Source: Prevotella sp. | GTDB lineage: Bacteria > Bacteroidota > Bacteroidia > Bacteroidales > Bacteroidaceae | DNA: 43,512 nucleotides | NCBI GenBank assembly: GCA_017428925.1 | Contig: JAFRPY010000091.1 | Location: 1 to 43,512, forward strand | Reading direction: 5' to 3' | In this document: positions 2,172-9,384 of the stretch, one piece after another | How positions within the stretch are numbered: the first letter of the stretch is position 1 | Layout of the letters: the number at the start of each line of letters is the position of its first letter | Position numbers and translations under genes: made by a program | The notes under the pieces: generated by a model | What the model saw: the letters and a program-made list of their open reading frames with translations, nothing else | Told to the model about the DNA's origin: nothing | The model's database searches: none

Positions 2172-3197
2172 TTATTGATTCCTCTTGTCGCTCAGTTTCT
2201 TCTGTTCCCGTTCAAATTGATCTATGAAATGAATCTCAACAGGTGTCAGTTCGTTCTTTGTCCGCTCCTTGAACTTGCCGTATTCCGCATCAGCCTTCGC
2301 CTTGGCGAGTTGTGCAGAAATCTGTCCTGCATGAGTCAGGATGTCCTTGCGGGATATACGCAGGAAGTCATCGAGAATTGCAATCCAGTCTTTCATATAC
2401 ATAGGCCGATGCTCCTCTGCCTGTAGTTCAGCGAAGTCCAGATACAGGCTGACGATACGGTTGAGCGTCGTAATCTCTTCTTGTGACAGGTAGTTCTTTG
2501 CAATCTCGGCATCAGTCTTCTTGGGCATCGCACCAGTCCATGTTGTCAGTCCCATAAAGTCTTTCTGTGCATCAGCACGCTCATAGACGATTTCTGCTGC
2601 CGTATGTCCATGCACCGAATAGTGCATCTTGTTCTGTACCGTCTTGAAGAACTCCTGTGTCATTTCTACCCTCGGGTCGTAGTCAATGCTAAGCGCATAT
2701 ATCTCCAGCACCTTCCTATAGAAAACCTTTTCCGACGAGCGGATATCACGAATACGGGCCAGCAGTTCATCGAAGTAATTGCCGCCACCAGCCCGTTTCA
2801 ACAGGTCGTCGTTCAGCGCAAAGCCTTTAACGATATACTCTTTCAGAACTTTCGTTGCCCACATTCTGAACTGCACGCCACGATAGGAATGAACACGATA
2901 GCCCACGCTGATAATCATATCAAGGTTATAAAACTCCACCTGATGCGTCTGTGATTTACCCTCAATGGCACCGTGCTGAGTGGTAGTTGCATATTTTGCA
3001 ACTACCACTTCCCTGTCCAGTTCCCCCTCCTCGAACACATTTTTGATGTGTCGGGAAATGGTAGACTTGTTGCGCTGAAACAGTTCAGCCATCTGCTCCA
3101 GACTGAGCCATACCGTTTCCCCTTCCAGCCGCACTTCTATGCGCGACTCCCCGTCAGGAGTTTGATAGAGTAATATCTGCCCTTTGTTTTCTTCCAT
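2172..3197 (-). CDS. rhuM: RhuM family protein (intact)
   Basis: This 341-residue protein has the full length of the RhuM family (about 330-350). Residues 1-70 form a winged-helix-like region (EQMAELFQRNKSTISRHIKNVF). The diagnostic core EFYNLDMIISVGYRVHS follows at about 88-104, then a conserved C-terminal half with EIVYERADAQKDFMGLTTW and EIAKNYLSQEEI. The biochemical role is unknown; RhuM genes are common in defence and mobile islands beside restriction systems and Fic proteins, as here. A 42-bp repeat shared with the damaged second rhuM copy lies just upstream. It follows the TIR gene by about 110 bp and precedes the BRO-N/Fic remnant by 3 bp. Confidence 0.85.
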   Translation of the reverse strand: MEENKGQILLYQTPDGESRIEVRLEGETVWLSLEQMAELFQRNKSTISRHIKNVFEEGELDREVVVAKYATTTQHGAIEGKSQTHQVEFYNLDMIISVGYRVHSYRGVQFRMWATKVLKEYIVKGFALNDDLLKRAGGGNYFDELLARIRDIRSSEKVFYRKVLEIYALSIDYDPRVEMTQEFFKTVQNKMHYSVHGHTAAEIVYERADAQKDFMGLTTWTGAMPKKTDAEIAKNYLSQEEITTLNRIVSLYLDFAELQAEEHRPMYMKDWIAILDDFLRISRKDILTHAGQISAQLAKAKADAEYGKFKERTKNELTPVEIHFIDQFEREQKKLSDKRNQ

Positions 3198-3219: not shown

Positions 3220-3261
3220 TCAAAACCATCTCATTTCGAGTTACCCACTATCTATATTGCA
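3220..3261. repeat. 42-bp direct repeat, copy 2 (upstream of intact rhuM)
   Basis: Identical to 1577-1618. Here the repeat is followed by a second, partial copy of the AGTTACCCACTA motif at about 3262-3274, which is missing from copy 1. Reading toward rhuM, this leaves two tandem GTGGGTAACT elements, a layout that would suit a repressor or activator site. Confidence 0.85.
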
Positions 3262-3305
3262 GTTACCCACTAACTCTGATGAATTAACCAGTAACTCAGT
3301 ATCGT

Positions 3306-4133
3306 TTAAGAAGAAACGTATTTATTAACCACATTTATAAAATCGGCTTTCCTTTGATTGAAATTAATCAAATCTTGTTGCAAGTCATAGTATTTGCAAA
3401 GTTCCACATATAGTTCATCCAATTTGGATTCATCTGTAATATCTGCCGCTTGCTTGACTACATTCAAGAAGCCAATTTCTTTGAATGATAGATTAGGAAA
3501 CTTAAAAGGCAATACCCTTTTATTTTCCATAGCCCATGCTGCACCCATTTCATTCTGGCACACTTCACTCTTTCTATAGTTCTCAGAAATAATGCAAATA
3601 ACATAATCGCAGCTTTTCATATTATCTACAATTATATCTCTAAAGTCATCTCCTGTACGAATAGCCGTATGGTCTAATGTACAGAATATATCTTGAGTGG
3701 AAAAACGGCATCCCAGCATTAAAATTTCTTTTATGAAGGCTTTAACTATTGTTTCATCATCCGATGCATGACTAATGAATATCTTTCGCCCGACTCTTGC
3801 ATTTAGCGATTTATCTGAATACAAAGAGTCTATGACTTTAATAGCAGCCTTTAACTCTCCAAAAGAATACGCATTTATAAAATCTTTATAGACCATCTGG
3901 CCATACGGTCCAATTGGAACAGCTTGCCTATTAACAATAGTTCGAGTTGCATTTTGCAGAATATCAGCAATTGTGGGGTGGTCTTCTTTCACGATAGGAA
4001 ATATTTGGTTAGAGAACTCTACAAGTTGCCTCGTCCGTGGGCCTATTTCAGTATTATAGTTTATGGAGATTCCTGTCAGCAAAGTTTTTGCCGAATCTAT
4101 CAGATTTCGAAGGTGGCTGTATTCTTGTTTCAT
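3306..4133 (-). CDS. TIR-domain protein
   Basis: This 275-residue protein has a C-terminal TIR domain. GRKIFISHASDD (115-126) is the first strand and loop, DHTAIRTGDDFRDII (154-168) fits the BB-loop region, and SENYRKSEVCQNEMGAAW (183-200) places a glutamate at 195 in the position of the catalytic Glu of NAD-cleaving TIR domains. Residues 1-113 are a predicted helical domain that I do not recognise. Bacterial TIR domains usually act as NADases or signal-producing enzymes in abortive anti-phage defence. It starts 14 bp after the membrane-protein gene, so the two are probably co-transcribed. NADase activity is inferred from the retained Glu. Confidence 0.85.
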   Translation of the reverse strand: MKQEYSHLRNLIDSAKTLLTGISINYNTEIGPRTRQLVEFSNQIFPIVKEDHPTIADILQNATRTIVNRQAVPIGPYGQMVYKDFINAYSFGELKAAIKVIDSLYSDKSLNARVGRKIFISHASDDETIVKAFIKEILMLGCRFSTQDIFCTLDHTAIRTGDDFRDIIVDNMKSCDYVICIISENYRKSEVCQNEMGAAWAMENKRVLPFKFPNLSFKEIGFLNVVKQAADITDESKLDELYVELCKYYDLQQDLINFNQRKADFINVVNKYVSS

Positions 4134-4147
4134 TTTTATAGCTGCCT

Positions 4148-4876
4148 TTAATTTGTTGAATTATGTTGCAGTATTTGTTCCACAATGCTGTTGTTTTTAT
4201 GGATTACCTCAGACAATTTTTTCATTGGATATTCCTCTATTGGCACATCAAGCATGAACCTATACATAAACACAAGTTTATCATACGTTTCTTTCATTGC
4301 TTCCAAACTATCTGCTGTAAATGTTGATATTGCAGCCAACATGTTTTCTTTATGGGTGCTTTGAACATTGACACCTTTCTCAATAGCCTTTCTTCTCATA
4401 GCAGTTACAAGCATGATATATGATTTTAATGTTAGTTCGGCACTGTCTGAAAGTAATGGCATAACACTTGTAACATATTCATCAAACGAACGGATGTCTT
4501 CATTTAATTTGCATATATATTTCCATGAATTGACAATACAGTTTTTGTCACATTCATGGTTGCACATCTCCTTCTTTGTAAACTTCACATTGCCTTTACA
4601 TTCATAAAGGTTAAAAGAGTATAGCCGGTTGACGTCTTGGTTTAGCTTCGCAATAGAACGAAGAACTTCCTTCATCACCTTGATTCGTTCTTCTAACGTT
4701 GTACTACTTCTTGCAATGTCTTTTGCTAGTTTGGCTTTATGCGATTCCAGCTCTCTGTCAAACTTGTTAATAATTGACTGACGTTTGTAGAAAAACAAAG
4801 CTGTGCAAGTAGCAGTGATTAAAGAAGCCACGATGCTTGCAATTGAAATCCAATCTTTTACTTCTAACTCTATCAT
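4148..4876 (-). CDS. Single-pass membrane protein with a coiled coil, partner of the TIR gene
   Basis: The 242-residue protein has one clear transmembrane segment at about 10-30 (ISIASIVASLITATCTALFF) near the N-terminus, followed by a charged helical, coiled-coil-like stretch at 31-80. A cysteine/histidine cluster follows (C93, then C105, H107, C109 and C113 in MCNHECDKNC), which could bind a metal. The rest looks helical. I do not recognise the family. It lies 31 bp after hsdS and 14 bp before the TIR gene on the same strand, so it may be a membrane anchor, sensor or effector for the TIR protein. The coding call is good; the function is unknown. Confidence 0.75.
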   Translation of the reverse strand: MIELEVKDWISIASIVASLITATCTALFFYKRQSIINKFDRELESHKAKLAKDIARSSTTLEERIKVMKEVLRSIAKLNQDVNRLYSFNLYECKGNVKFTKKEMCNHECDKNCIVNSWKYICKLNEDIRSFDEYVTSVMPLLSDSAELTLKSYIMLVTAMRRKAIEKGVNVQSTHKENMLAAISTFTADSLEAMKETYDKLVFMYRFMLDVPIEEYPMKKLSEVIHKNNSIVEQILQHNSTN

Positions 4877-4907
4877 AATTTATTTTATCTCTTGAATCAT
4901 AGAATAA

Positions 4908-6335
4908 CTATTGTAAAATCATTCGTTCTACTTCTCTCTTTGCTTGCTCCAATATGTCTTTTCCTTCTTCCTGCAAGGCTCTTGCCTTTTTGCGAATGTC
5001 TGCGATGTGTTCGGCGATTTCCTGTTGTTTGTCCAATGGAGGTAAAACCACCTTAATGGTAGATATTTCCTCTAAATTGATATTGGCTCTAGCAACAGGA
5101 CGCTTCAGTCGATTAAGAGAAAGTTGACCTATACTTGACTTTATCAATTCCTTTATGAATTGAACATTATATCCATCTTTTAATCGTACAAGTGCTATTG
5201 CCTGATTAATGTTGGCTTCACCATCATAAGGATAGATTCCAACCTGCCCAATAGTAGCACCTACAATGGCTATAAGAATATCATTCTTTTGTAATTGAGA
5301 TGAGCACATCAATGTTTCATGAATTTCAGGATTTAAATACAACAAGTCATCAAAGTCTAATTCACCTTCAATCGAAATGTTTCCGCTTCGAACAAAAGGA
5401 ACACCGTTCTCTTTGTCCTTAGTATATGCGTCACCTCCTGATTTTGGAGTGACACCGCTCGTAATGAGTTTTGCAATTTTTTTTAGATTAACGATGGGAT
5501 ATTTACATGATTCTAATGCAGCAAATGCGTCTCTGAAATATTGTTGTGAATAATAGGGATCCCAACGACTATCTAAAGACTTTCGATTTATAATAAACGT
5601 TCTATCCTTTAAAGTAGTATTATATTCTGGCAACGAAACACCAATCTCGTTAAGTATAAATGTATCAATGCTTTCAAGGAGTTTCTTGGCCTCCGATTCC
5701 TTTTCTTGCTTTTTTGAATATGCAGTTTGGATTATCGAGACAATTTCATTTTGAATGTTTGTTGGAGGAAGTGGTATTTCAAGAGACTGATATTCTTCAG
5801 AATTAATATTAGGTTGTCCGCTTGGGCGCTGAACAGCACTTACCCATTCTTTATATGTATTTGTTTGCGTAAATGCAAAGACATAGTCAGGCAATGCAAT
5901 CTGCGGATTTATAACAAATCGAATCAGGTATCCCGCAAAGAAACATGTATAAGGACAGTCTTTATGGATATAAGCTTTGCCAACAGTAGCCCCGCTGCGT
6001 GCTATCAAGAGATCATTTTTATGAAGAATATATTGATCTTCTATCGTATTGGCAGTTGCTCCTAAATCATTATGAGAAATCAGACCATATTCATCAATGT
6101 CGGTAATTCTGATATACCGAGGTGACTTTATATCGGTTCTGGTTATCCCTGACTCTGCGGCACCATATTGCGGTTTACCCAATAAAAGGTCTTTCAATCG
6201 AACCTTGGGGTATGACCAATTCTGCACTTTACGATTGTACAATGCCATTTTGGGATCTAACCTTCCTTCAATCTCCGACCGATTGACGATGAAGATTTTG
6301 TTTTTGCTAATATGTTGGGGAACTTGGTAACTCAT
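4908..6335 (-). CDS. hsdS: Restriction-modification specificity subunit (HsdS-like)
   Basis: The 475-residue protein shows the two-repeat layout of specificity subunits. A first target-recognition domain covers about 40-195, a conserved helix with PLPPTNIQNEIVSII 190-230, a second target-recognition domain about 270-430, and a terminal helix with PPLDKQQEIAEHIADI 430-475. Two complete recognition domains imply a bipartite target. Its ATG overlaps the hsdM stop (ATGA), so translation is coupled. It supplies DNA sequence recognition for the adjacent nuclease-methyltransferase. No truncation is visible. Confidence 0.9.
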   Translation of the reverse strand: MSYQVPQHISKNKIFIVNRSEIEGRLDPKMALYNRKVQNWSYPKVRLKDLLLGKPQYGAAESGITRTDIKSPRYIRITDIDEYGLISHNDLGATANTIEDQYILHKNDLLIARSGATVGKAYIHKDCPYTCFFAGYLIRFVINPQIALPDYVFAFTQTNTYKEWVSAVQRPSGQPNINSEEYQSLEIPLPPTNIQNEIVSIIQTAYSKKQEKESEAKKLLESIDTFILNEIGVSLPEYNTTLKDRTFIINRKSLDSRWDPYYSQQYFRDAFAALESCKYPIVNLKKIAKLITSGVTPKSGGDAYTKDKENGVPFVRSGNISIEGELDFDDLLYLNPEIHETLMCSSQLQKNDILIAIVGATIGQVGIYPYDGEANINQAIALVRLKDGYNVQFIKELIKSSIGQLSLNRLKRPVARANINLEEISTIKVVLPPLDKQQEIAEHIADIRKKARALQEEGKDILEQAKREVERMILQ

Positions 6336-8500
6336 AACGTAGCAATAAACTTCTTAAGTTCTTCACCAATCACATCCAACTCATTCGTGGCAGTTTTCTT
6401 GCCAGTAGCATCATAACCAATCTCTTCGGCAATTGCCATGAAGATAGGATAATTAGGAAGTTTCTTTTGTTTTGCTTGTTGGTACTGCTCCGTCAGACTT
6501 GTTTTCAATGTGTCAATCTTTGTGGCATACTCTTCGAGTATTACTGAGTTCCAAGACTTGTATTCTTCCGTTTGTTTGGCTGCGGTCGTAGAGATACGTT
6601 GCTTGTCTTTTATCTCATCAGCTTTGAGTTTTTGCTTTTGTTTTATCTCTTTGTCCCACTGGGTACGTAAAGCCAAATAATCGCTATCCCTCAAAAGTTC
6701 GTTTTCAATATTCTTTTTGGTTTCAACGAGTTCTTTTGTCTCTTCGTTCTTCCATTTACGAAGGAAGAGCACAGAACTTTTCACGCCTGCGCCATTCGCA
6801 GCAAATGCAGTTTGGGGCATACTGACAACTGCAACAATACGGAACCAGTCTTCAATCTGGGTTCTGACATATTGCATACTGCTATTTGTAAGGATACCAT
6901 CTGGAAGGACTATAGCCAAATAGCCACCCTCTTTCAGGAACTTATAATCCTGTTCAATAAAAAGAACTTCTGTTGACTGGCTATCACGAGTGCTCTTTGG
7001 TTGCGCTTTTACCGCTAACCAATCTTCTTCTTTCTTTCCTAATTGATAATTTTTTAAATATGCTTGTTCGCTTTGACGAATACTGCTCCCAAAGGGGGGA
7101 TTTGTAATAATGAAATCAAAACTGTCATATAAGAAATTACCATTATCCGTGTTTTGCTTTATTTGTGACGGTGATTCCAGTCCATCATTCCTTACCACGT
7201 TAGTATGGCCATCATCATGAATAATCATATTCATTTTTGCAGTCCTGGAGATTTTTTTACTTAATTCAATTCCATAAAGATTGTTTTCTGCAAATCCATG
7301 CCAATGATTATGCCATCTTAGTCTATCTTCTGGATCTTTTTCGTATTCAGGGTAATAAGAAGTAGCTTGTTCTCGAACCTTGTTTAGTGCATACAAAAGA
7401 AATCCTCCACTTCCGCATGAAGTATCCAAAACCCTTGATTGATTGTTAATAGGCAATACATCGACAATAAAATCTACTATAGGTCTTGGTGTAAAATATT
7501 GACCAAAATCACCTCTAAAGAAAGAGCCAATGAAGGTTTCGAAAGCCCTTCCTTTTGCATCAAGATCTGTCTTGTTTAGATTAACGCCTTCAATATATCC
7601 GACGACGGCTCGCAACTTCTCTGGGGAAAGCTGAATGTCATCACGAAATACTTCTTTGTCTCTTTTACGACCTTCTTCATAAAGAGTTGTAATACGTTTG
7701 TACAAATCTTCGTTTTCTTTTTTCCGGCGTTTATCTTCATCCTTTATGTCTTCTTTGTTAATATAGAAAATTTGAAAGTCATAAGGATCGCCTGCATGTC
7801 TGTCTTTTCTTTCGTCCCATATTTTACAAAAGATAAGCTTGTCTAATTCGTCAAAAGCATCAGATGGCTCAAGTTCGCCACCATTCCATAAAGTTTGATG
7901 AGCCAGTTTAAAACGTCGTGTTAAGTCAGCCTGATCTATTGTTTCGATATCTCTTAACAACTCACAGCCTTCTTGATCATGAACGCTTGCAGCCTTGTAC
8001 ACATATCTATAAGGCTTCCTATTCAATATATTATGTCCGAAACTGGGTATATCTGGAATTTGATTTCTCGTATTTAAGTTCTTATCAACTTCATAGAACT
8101 CGTTTCGAATTCCTGACGTAACCCATATATATTTGACGTTACAAGGTAATGAGAATGCGTAACTATATGCTTGTTCTATTGCTTGCAAAAATTCTGCCTC
8201 ACTAATATCATGACGTTTGCATTCGACTACGATGTGTGGTGCTAAACACATATCATCATCATATACAATAATATCAGCTTCTTTAATTTCGCTGCCCATT
8301 GTAACAGGAACAAACAGCCTGATTCGGCTTACTGGGTAATTATAATCCAAAATCAGCCTAAGGAACGTCTCAGCCTGTACTTTCTCTTCTGGATTGTTGT
8401 AATTGCGTTCCTTCTTTTGGAAAATGTATGTAATCCTGGACTTATCTTCATTAAACGAGATAAGACCTTTTTCAATTCCTATTTGTATATAGTCCTTCAT
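6332..8500 (-). CDS. Fused restriction nuclease and adenine-N6 DNA methyltransferase
   Basis: The 722-residue protein joins two activities. Residues 40-135 form an HsdR-N-like PD-(D/E)xK nuclease, with D76 in EADIIVYDDD and E93-C-K95 in HIVVECKRHD. Residues 290-580 form an N6-adenine methyltransferase of the HsdM type, with motif I DTSCGSGGF at 359-367, motif IV NPPF at 467-470 and DFGQYFTPRPIVDFIVD ahead of motif I. The C-terminal 130 residues are charged and helical. No DEAD-box translocase is encoded here or nearby, so together with HsdS this resembles BcgI-like (type IIB/IIG) enzymes more than a classic type I system. It follows the GIY-YIG remnant by 19 bp. Confidence 0.88.
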   Translation of the reverse strand: MKDYIQIGIEKGLISFNEDKSRITYIFQKKERNYNNPEEKVQAETFLRLILDYNYPVSRIRLFVPVTMGSEIKEADIIVYDDDMCLAPHIVVECKRHDISEAEFLQAIEQAYSYAFSLPCNVKYIWVTSGIRNEFYEVDKNLNTRNQIPDIPSFGHNILNRKPYRYVYKAASVHDQEGCELLRDIETIDQADLTRRFKLAHQTLWNGGELEPSDAFDELDKLIFCKIWDERKDRHAGDPYDFQIFYINKEDIKDEDKRRKKENEDLYKRITTLYEEGRKRDKEVFRDDIQLSPEKLRAVVGYIEGVNLNKTDLDAKGRAFETFIGSFFRGDFGQYFTPRPIVDFIVDVLPINNQSRVLDTSCGSGGFLLYALNKVREQATSYYPEYEKDPEDRLRWHNHWHGFAENNLYGIELSKKISRTAKMNMIIHDDGHTNVVRNDGLESPSQIKQNTDNGNFLYDSFDFIITNPPFGSSIRQSEQAYLKNYQLGKKEEDWLAVKAQPKSTRDSQSTEVLFIEQDYKFLKEGGYLAIVLPDGILTNSSMQYVRTQIEDWFRIVAVVSMPQTAFAANGAGVKSSVLFLRKWKNEETKELVETKKNIENELLRDSDYLALRTQWDKEIKQKQKLKADEIKDKQRISTTAAKQTEEYKSWNSVILEEYATKIDTLKTSLTEQYQQAKQKKLPNYPIFMAIAEEIGYDATGKKTATNELDVIGEELKKFIATL

Positions 8501-8519: not shown

Positions 8520-9163
8520 TTATTCTTCTATTTCTTTCCTTATTTCATCCAACACTTTCTCGTTATACGAGAAATACTTGGCACCTTGATAGGCGCCAGA
8601 AGTGTTGCGGTGTTCCTCTGGCATAAAAGTTCCGACAAATGGGGAGAGCTTATATATACGCCCTTCGTACTCGATGCTGTCATCGGAAGCAACTTTTACG
8701 ACGATACCCGTAGGATCAAAAGTGACCTGTTCGCCAATCTTGATGCCACACATAGAGAACTTGAAGCGGGGCGTTTCACCTCACGCTTCTGGGGTTCCTT
8801 GTGTTCATTTTCCACGATGGGTTTGTTGTCTTCGTAGAGTGTCACCTCTGCATTGTCTATCGTCATGGCAATATCACGGAAGATGTCGAGTGCCATCTGT
8901 GGAGCGACATTGAAGAACTCGCGGTTTTGACGGATGCGAAGGTCAGTGAGGCGATCGATGGTTTTATGTACCAGTTTTTCTACCTCATTGTATTTCGTGG
9001 TCTTCATCGTGGCGAATATCTCGAAAGGCAAAGGGACGGCAGTATTATCCAGTTCCTTTGAGCGCACATCCACAGGACGACTGCTTTTGCCAATCTTCAC
9101 CCAATCCTCGCGGAAGCTGGGATTGGTCAGTATATATACGTAACCGGATTCTTTGTTGCTCAT
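8520..9163 (-). pseudogene. GIY-YIG (T5orf172) nuclease-like gene broken by a frameshift
   Basis: The N-terminal frame reads GYVYILTNP, then WVKIGKSSRPVDVR, and later NREFFNV, the pattern of the T5orf172 branch of GIY-YIG domains. It stays open to 8696 but becomes unrelated after KREVKRP. The second frame (8520-8753 and just upstream) continues with PRFKFSMCGIKIGEQ and FDPTGIVVKVASDD, the usual C-terminal domain of these proteins. Adding one C to the CCCC run at about 8767-8771 would restore a single protein of about 213 residues. The ATG at 9163 (MSNKES) is preferred because the one at 9193 overlaps the end of the XRE gene. A sequencing error or phase-variable tract is possible. Confidence 0.75.
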
Positions 9164-9177
9164 ATTGTTCTCTTGTT

Positions 9178-9384
9178 TTAATCTTCTGTCCAAAGTAAAT
9201 CATCTACACTCACACCCAATATCTTCGATAATTGGATGAACATCTCAACATTGGGCTGGGCGGCATTGGTCACCCATTTAGAAATAACAGCAGGGTCTTT
9301 ATCAAGGATTTCCGACAGCTGTTTGTTGGTCATTCCTTTCTCTGCCAGTACCACCTTTAGGCGGTTTATTCGTTTACGTTCCAT
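9178..9384 (-). CDS. XRE-family helix-turn-helix regulator
   Basis: This 68-residue protein is a single Cro/C1-type helix-turn-helix domain: KGMTNKQLSEILDKDPAVISKWVTN (about 16-40) with the family tail KILGVSVDDLLW. Small stand-alone XRE proteins typically repress their own promoter and the genes after it. It is the first gene of the GIY-YIG / restriction cluster and its end overlaps the longest possible start of the next gene, so it may control the restriction operon in the manner of a controller (C) protein. That role is inferred from position. Confidence 0.85.
   Translation of the reverse strand: MERKRINRLKVVLAEKGMTNKQLSEILDKDPAVISKWVTNAAQPNVEMFIQLSKILGVSVDDLLWTED

Follow-up and report, generated by a model that had tools for sequence, protein, structure and literature searches.

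Whether two neighbouring genes form one defence system, or are separate passengers of the same piece of mobile DNA, is the question raised by a restriction island of a Prevotella sp. contig (JAFRPY010000091.1, assembly GCA_017428925.1), the whole analysed stretch of which, 43,512 nucleotides in length, is referred to here as the window. On its minus strand, a gene for a TIR-domain protein of 275 amino acids (aa; 3306..4133) begins 14 bp behind a gene for a 242-aa membrane protein, here called mem (4148..4876), and the pair follows a restriction system composed of a 722-aa nuclease-methyltransferase fusion (6332..8500, minus strand; HSDR_N_2 and N6_Mtase domains) and a 475-aa specificity (S) subunit (4908..6335, minus strand), both recognised by Pfam and PADLOC. 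The coordinates and the upstream restriction system agree with a first-pass annotation of the window, which had proposed the pair as a two-gene defence unit. The explanation that we favour, with moderate confidence, is that the TIR protein is a stand-alone abortive-infection NAD-cleaving enzyme (NADase) related to SpbK and carried as exchangeable cargo behind S, and that mem is a separate passenger of the island. This explanation is built on gene order, homology, conserved residues, a domain mosaic and the varying gene content behind S, from which we infer NADase activity, its trigger, abortive infection and the independence of mem.

An SpbK-like TIR protein with a mosaic origin

Open-reading-frame (ORF) calling, Pfam, PADLOC, alignment and fold modelling together assign the TIR protein to the neighbourhood of SpbK (ICEBs1, Bacillus subtilis), a TIR NADase for which the activator is YonE, a phage portal protein, in the form of the portal ring. 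SpbK ranks first whether family models, profiles or folds are compared, with the PADLOC spbK model reaching E = 1.4e-24 and the Pfam TIR_2 match lying above the Pfam cut-off (E = 4.9e-15, residues 118-239). The two proteins share a helical N-terminal domain (N-domain), a C-terminal TIR domain of the SpbK subtype (residues 116-275, 3309..3788, minus strand), the catalytic glutamate and the N-E-x-G-x-x-W residues; SpbK E192, N191, G194 and W197 correspond in the alignment to E195 (codon 3549-3551, minus strand), N194, G197 and W200, and all four are invariant in 10 of 10 aligned TIR sequences, window included, which upholds the earlier claim that the catalytic glutamate is kept. Because of its likeness to SpbK, its retained catalytic and assembly residues and its location in a restriction island, assignment of the gene as a predicted defence NADase, in keeping with the defence role first proposed for it, is well supported. 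The setting differs from that of SpbK: the window gene lies in a restriction operon, behind a membrane-protein gene, and in a Bacteroidales host.

Assignment to other TIR families fares worse. ThsB models match the window protein at 2e-5 and weaker in PADLOC, ThcB4 scores 32.7 bits where the cut-off is 220, and neither the Argonaute gene nor the APAZ domain of a TIR-pAgo (SPARTA) system lies beside the TIR gene. For the TIR protein this agrees with the original view that the pair matches neither Thoeris nor TIR-pAgo, but the TIR part does fit a known defence model. The helical N-terminus, a putative sensor (residues 1-112, 3798..4133, minus strand), is modelled with four helices (2-21, 32-48, 53-64 and 88-105) and additionally with two strands (67-74 and 79-86) that form a beta-hairpin (67-86), at a mean predicted local distance difference test score (pLDDT) of 80.6. 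When a profile of all 10 TIR sequences is aligned with SpbK, the alignment starts at position 33.

The two domains of the protein have different nearest relatives. Identity to the TIR protein of locus L043 is 60% (67/112) in residues 1-112 and 40% (65/162) beyond, and identity to that of L042 is 38% (36/94) in the N-domain and 70% (112/160) in the TIR domain. Sites agreeing with one relative only divide 7:29 (L042:L043) in the N-domain and 58:11 in the TIR domain, with a Fisher p of 1e-10 that serves as a guide only, as the two relatives were picked for this contrast and sites are non-independent; the switch from one relative to the other lies somewhere within about residues 90-141. Trees built from 8 of the 10 proteins (L046 and L048, whose N-domains diverge, were omitted, and the tool warned of long branches) group the window with L043 for the N-domain (support 95/99) and with L042 for the TIR domain (92/94). 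Since the nearest relatives differ on the two sides of the sensor/effector border, the putative sensor and the TIR domain have been exchanged against each other there. Such an exchange would alter what the protein senses, and makes it a naturally occurring test of what determines how TIR immunity is triggered.

By the mechanism that we propose, the N-domain would act as a sensor that binds a phage component, by analogy with SpbK probably an assembled phage protein; binding would cluster the TIR domains head to tail and so form the active site with E195, after which cleavage of NAD+ would stop the infected cell before phage release. An NADase of the SpbK type, known from Bacillus, would on this reading reside in the restriction operons of bacteria far removed from Bacillus.

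Variable gene content behind the specificity subunit

BcgI-type enzymes consist of a fused nuclease-methyltransferase and a separate S subunit, and by domain layout the restriction system of the window resembles them, its HSDR_N_2 nuclease domain being joined to N6_Mtase in a single chain and S encoded apart. At E 1e-60 the fusion protein is present in 5 of 301 genomes of the family, own included, and what follows S differs in each: mem and TIR in the window; an AAA-ATPase of 585 aa and a TIR protein in G148; a TIR protein and a 603-aa protein in G087; proteins of 587 and 360 aa in G270; and a helicase-like protein of 493 aa, then RhuM, in G137. A TIR gene thus occupies this place in 3 of 5 operons and mem in 1 of 5 (window included). 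A sixth genome, G570, has the fusion (71%), S and a TIR gene 2 bp behind S; having been found through its TIR gene, it was left out of this count. In G270 the fusion gene is seen as two ORFs of 137 and 550 aa and may be broken.

The 603-aa protein of G087 (L048, 5012-6823) and the 587-aa protein of G270 (L087, 7048-8811) are 62% identical, with no Pfam family above cut-off in either, so that S and a shared downstream gene enclose a TIR gene in G087 but not in G270; beyond that point the operons differ. A C-terminal stretch of the 603-aa protein of L048 gives a weak PADLOC match to a TIR effector (0.00024). Relatives of the TIR gene are also found behind Schlafen-type helicase genes (L044, L047), a DUF2971 gene (L042) and a 644-aa gene (L045), the last of which is 31% identical to a 628-aa gene that precedes mem in L011. 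Parts of these islands have been reshuffled, and more effectors may be sought in the variable position behind S.

The membrane protein and its relation to the TIR gene

The description of mem as a single-pass membrane protein holds: it has one hydrophobic stretch, the best 19-residue segment of which begins at residue 10. The transmembrane segment, roughly residues 10-28, is thus part of a long helix (3-58) that is followed by a helical bundle. Acidic residues lie before this segment and basic residues after it, and by the positive-inside rule the protein beyond the segment is predicted to be cytoplasmic. All five residues of the Cys/His cluster that was first described (C93, C105, H107, C109 and C113) are present, but H107 is proline in a distant mem sequence and the conserved cluster is therefore Cys4 (4538..4600, minus strand); its cysteines are the sole invariant cysteines across four aligned sequences, window included, two of which are nearly identical, and the cluster may bind a metal. 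A model built from the four sequences (mean pLDDT 74.0, the five models ranging from 74 to 48) has helices at 3-58, 61-90, 114-141, 144-168, 175-183, 188-210 and 218-237, with Cys4 in the loop 91-113. The protein is, as first noted, unrecognised: its fold matches are generic helical bundles, its weak sequence matches (best PHROG, E 0.004; Pfam SET, 0.013, under cut-off) are joined by none in PADLOC or the PDB, and Pfam, PADLOC, NCBIfam and PHROGs yield no macro, SLOG or other ligand-binding match.

Relatives of mem are rare. They occur in 3 of 301 family genomes (own, G113 and G200); in the order and phylum samples (393 and 395 genomes, overlapping the family sample) the only full match is the own genome, with partial matches in 2 and 1 genomes, respectively, and none was found in viral contigs, plasmids or phages. 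A search of genome contigs returned three loci, two of them, L009 and L011, being the contigs already met in G113 and G200, respectively. In L009, the closest (a Prevotellaceae metagenome-assembled genome, MAG; mem 73% identical to that of the window), D12 methylase, DpnII and N6/N4 methylase genes precede mem and a 350-aa gene follows it before the contig ends. L010 (4270 bp, assigned to Kiritimatiellae by binning) is a near-copy of this locus that breaks off within mem, and the near-identity may reflect mis-binning or recent transfer. In L011 (a Bacteroidaceae MAG; mem 25% identical), an Eco57I/ResIII-type enzyme and two more genes come before mem and a UPF0489 gene after it; this locus gave only a weak PADLOC match, to HamA (0.0045). 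The Cys4 proteins are accordingly a small unexplained family met only in restriction islands, and the next gene, visible in two of the three further loci, is not a TIR gene. Among the partial matches of the order and phylum samples, that in L006 was dropped, as by eye it lies within a transporter-like ORF, and the protein of L008 (G717) may be a distant relative sharing the first part of mem (hhalign E 7e-7, one pair) without the Cys4 cluster.

The pairing was also followed from the TIR side. TIR relatives occur in 22 of 301 family genomes at E 0.001 and in 7 of 295 order genomes at 1e-12 (own included in each), and around 17 fetched genome loci (11 family, 6 order; 7 of the 17 sharing the window N-domain type by blastp) no mem relative was found among predicted ORFs at blastp E 1e-3, L077 being cut off upstream and L044 and L073 ending soon after the TIR gene. 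The same search around 12 viral TIR loci was likewise negative, and in G200 weak TIR-domain matches lie on contigs other than that of mem. With mem adjoining a TIR gene in the window only, and no second pair in genomes, contigs, viral contigs, plasmids, phages or TIR loci, the two-gene unit is not supported; within the limits set by few mem relatives and by contig ends, the searches gave the very outcome that the first-pass annotation had named as refuting its proposal, a pair conserved together nowhere else. Titles and abstract openings retrieved under TIR proteins with membrane partners, TIR genes beside restriction genes and restriction accessory cassettes hold nothing on this arrangement, and among the matches listed for Thoeris type III names, none, as far as these parts of the records extend, is about Thoeris. 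Two viral contigs (L062, 3221-5407; L063, 3361-5547) carry, one after another, a ThsB-like ORF (by eye), a transmembrane protein and a TIR protein.

DNA comparison offers a further view of mem. Window and L009 share, in the same order and strand, 9065-9179 (77%), 8526-8609 (87%) and 4152-4881 (74%, corresponding to mem), but the restriction genes that separate these stretches differ, as do the genes after mem. The restriction system was thus swapped inside a common frame containing mem, which also argues that mem belongs to this frame irrespective of the gene behind it.

Several observations weigh against the preferred reading of a stand-alone SpbK-like effector. SpbK acts without partner genes, whereas the window TIR gene lies 14 bp behind mem in one row; its N-domain, unlike that of SpbK, carries the hairpin, is dissimilar in sequence and, as sole query, finds no SpbK chain in the PDB by sequence. 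Contact and interface residues of SpbK are identical at 7 of 13 checked positions, including the N-E-G-W four, with D158, F162 and Y188 replaced by G161, R165 and V191, and the TIR model is weak near the active site (residues 154-163 and 197-201 at pLDDT <50). Furthermore, 6 of 10 TIR relatives also match a ThsB model (best 1.6e-9), five operons are a small number in a setting where defence genes cluster anyway, and the pairing test is limited by few mem relatives and by contig ends.

Other readings have mem or the restriction enzyme work together with the TIR protein. That mem is a modular membrane adaptor or sensor driving whichever effector follows, be it the TIR protein, the 350-aa protein of L009 or the UPF0489 protein of L011, is unlikely. 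In its favour, each of the three mem loci with a readable downstream neighbour has a different gene there, encoded on the same strand and starting 14-27 bp beyond mem (the L009 distance counted from the first possible start, TTG); mem also keeps 73% identity between window and L009 despite different genes on both sides, and its Cys4 cluster is invariant. Against it, such short gaps are common here (S-TIR 2 bp in L073, 3 bp in L048), PADLOC recognises neither of the genes that follow mem in L009 and L011, Pfam yields for them UPF0489 alone, at its cut-off, and no mem lies near 17 other TIR genes. Rather unlikely, too, is a wider scheme in which the position behind S is an exchange slot for abortive-infection effectors, with tandem palindromes as its mark in several places, mem is a modular transducer coupling the restriction island to the following effector, and TIR-driven NAD loss would be triggered at the membrane or on restriction failure.

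A third possibility draws on the guardians of restriction-modification (RM) systems, such as PrrC and PARIS, which are established (PMC12707154). As PrrC guards EcoprrI, the TIR protein would be held inactive by the restriction enzyme and released when a phage inhibits restriction, and NAD depletion would then join the guard responses. The likeness is that in both cases a restriction operon harbours a gene which probably acts in abortive infection, and the recurrence of TIR behind the S gene of this kind of enzyme, seen in 3 of 5 operons (window included) and additionally in G570, agrees with it. We nevertheless regard this as unlikely: the predicted effector is a TIR NADase, not a tRNase, gene content behind S varies (no TIR in G137 and G270), relatives with the same N-domain type occur in genomes without the enzyme at E 1e-60 (L042, L044, L045 and L047, i.e. 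G249, G240, G207 and G158), and SpbK senses a phage protein. A Thoeris-like division of labour, in which TIR would make a signal nucleotide and mem would be the effector, as in type II (ThsB TIR with the transmembrane-macro protein ThsA), is very improbable. It is favoured by the membrane-protein neighbour, by weak ThsB and ThcB matches that are stronger in some relatives, and by the production of N1-cyclic ADP-ribose (N1-cADPR) by SpbK itself (PMC12847820); for the window protein, however, spbK far outscores every Thoeris model, and mem has no macro-domain or other ligand-binding match, no conserved link to the TIR gene and only generic fold matches.

Island frame, neighbouring genes and palindromes

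In minus-strand order the island comprises a 68-aa HTH_3 regulator at its head (9178..9384; Pfam), a 165-aa T5orf172 ORF (8696..9193; Pfam, PADLOC) and a short ORF (8520..8753), the latter two containing 9065-9179 and 8526-8609, respectively, of which 8526-8609 has its L009 counterpart ahead of the DpnII-type system, then fusion, S, mem, TIR and a RhuM-family gene (2172..3197; Pfam) 3' of TIR. Fusion and S overlap by 4 bp, and S-mem and TIR-RhuM gaps are 31 and 108 bp. The G+C content is 35-37% in the fusion, S, mem and TIR genes and 50% in the part of the window beyond 10 kb, and the island is therefore probably acquired DNA. A RhuM relative, 51% identical, is present in the G137 version of the operon; by eye, short ORFs at 845-1291, 1288-1554 and 1652-2125 look like pieces of a second RhuM gene and a Fic-type gene, an 88-aa piece among them having no Pfam match at 0.001. 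Over 9197-9384 the DNA of the regulator gene is 72% alike to that of a similar regulator located two genes upstream of TIR in L042, and the regulator may control these cassettes.

Between TIR and RhuM (3239..3296, minus strand) lie tandem palindromes of the unit AGTTA-GTGGG-TAACT and variants, in gene direction GAGTTA-GTGGG-TAACTC, spaced 21-22 bp; in other loci, too, such repeats lie between restriction or defence genes. Sites were recorded at 3239-3296 and 1597-1611 of the window, at ~7022-7085 of L043 (AAA/TIR), ~9897-9935 of L009 (methylase/mem) and ~1500-1560 of L089 (Eco57I-type methylase/AlbA_2), and near 1458-1545 in L114 (methylase/RhuM), L115 (before a cytosine methylase), L117 (GmrSD_C/DUF1016_N; 65 aa, under cut-off) and L118; L113, L118 and L050 were also noted as carrying sites. 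Single units are not in excess at <=1 mismatch (10 sites against 7 for a reversed control, 11 genomes) or <=2 mismatches (7 against 11, own genome). Unit pairs number 4 in 23 sequences, mostly defence loci, against 0 in 20 order-1 random sets, two of the four coming from near-identical L009 and L010 and the pattern being drawn from these same sites. The unit has 15 exact matches in viral contigs, and an operator, an RNA hairpin or an exchange site are candidate roles.
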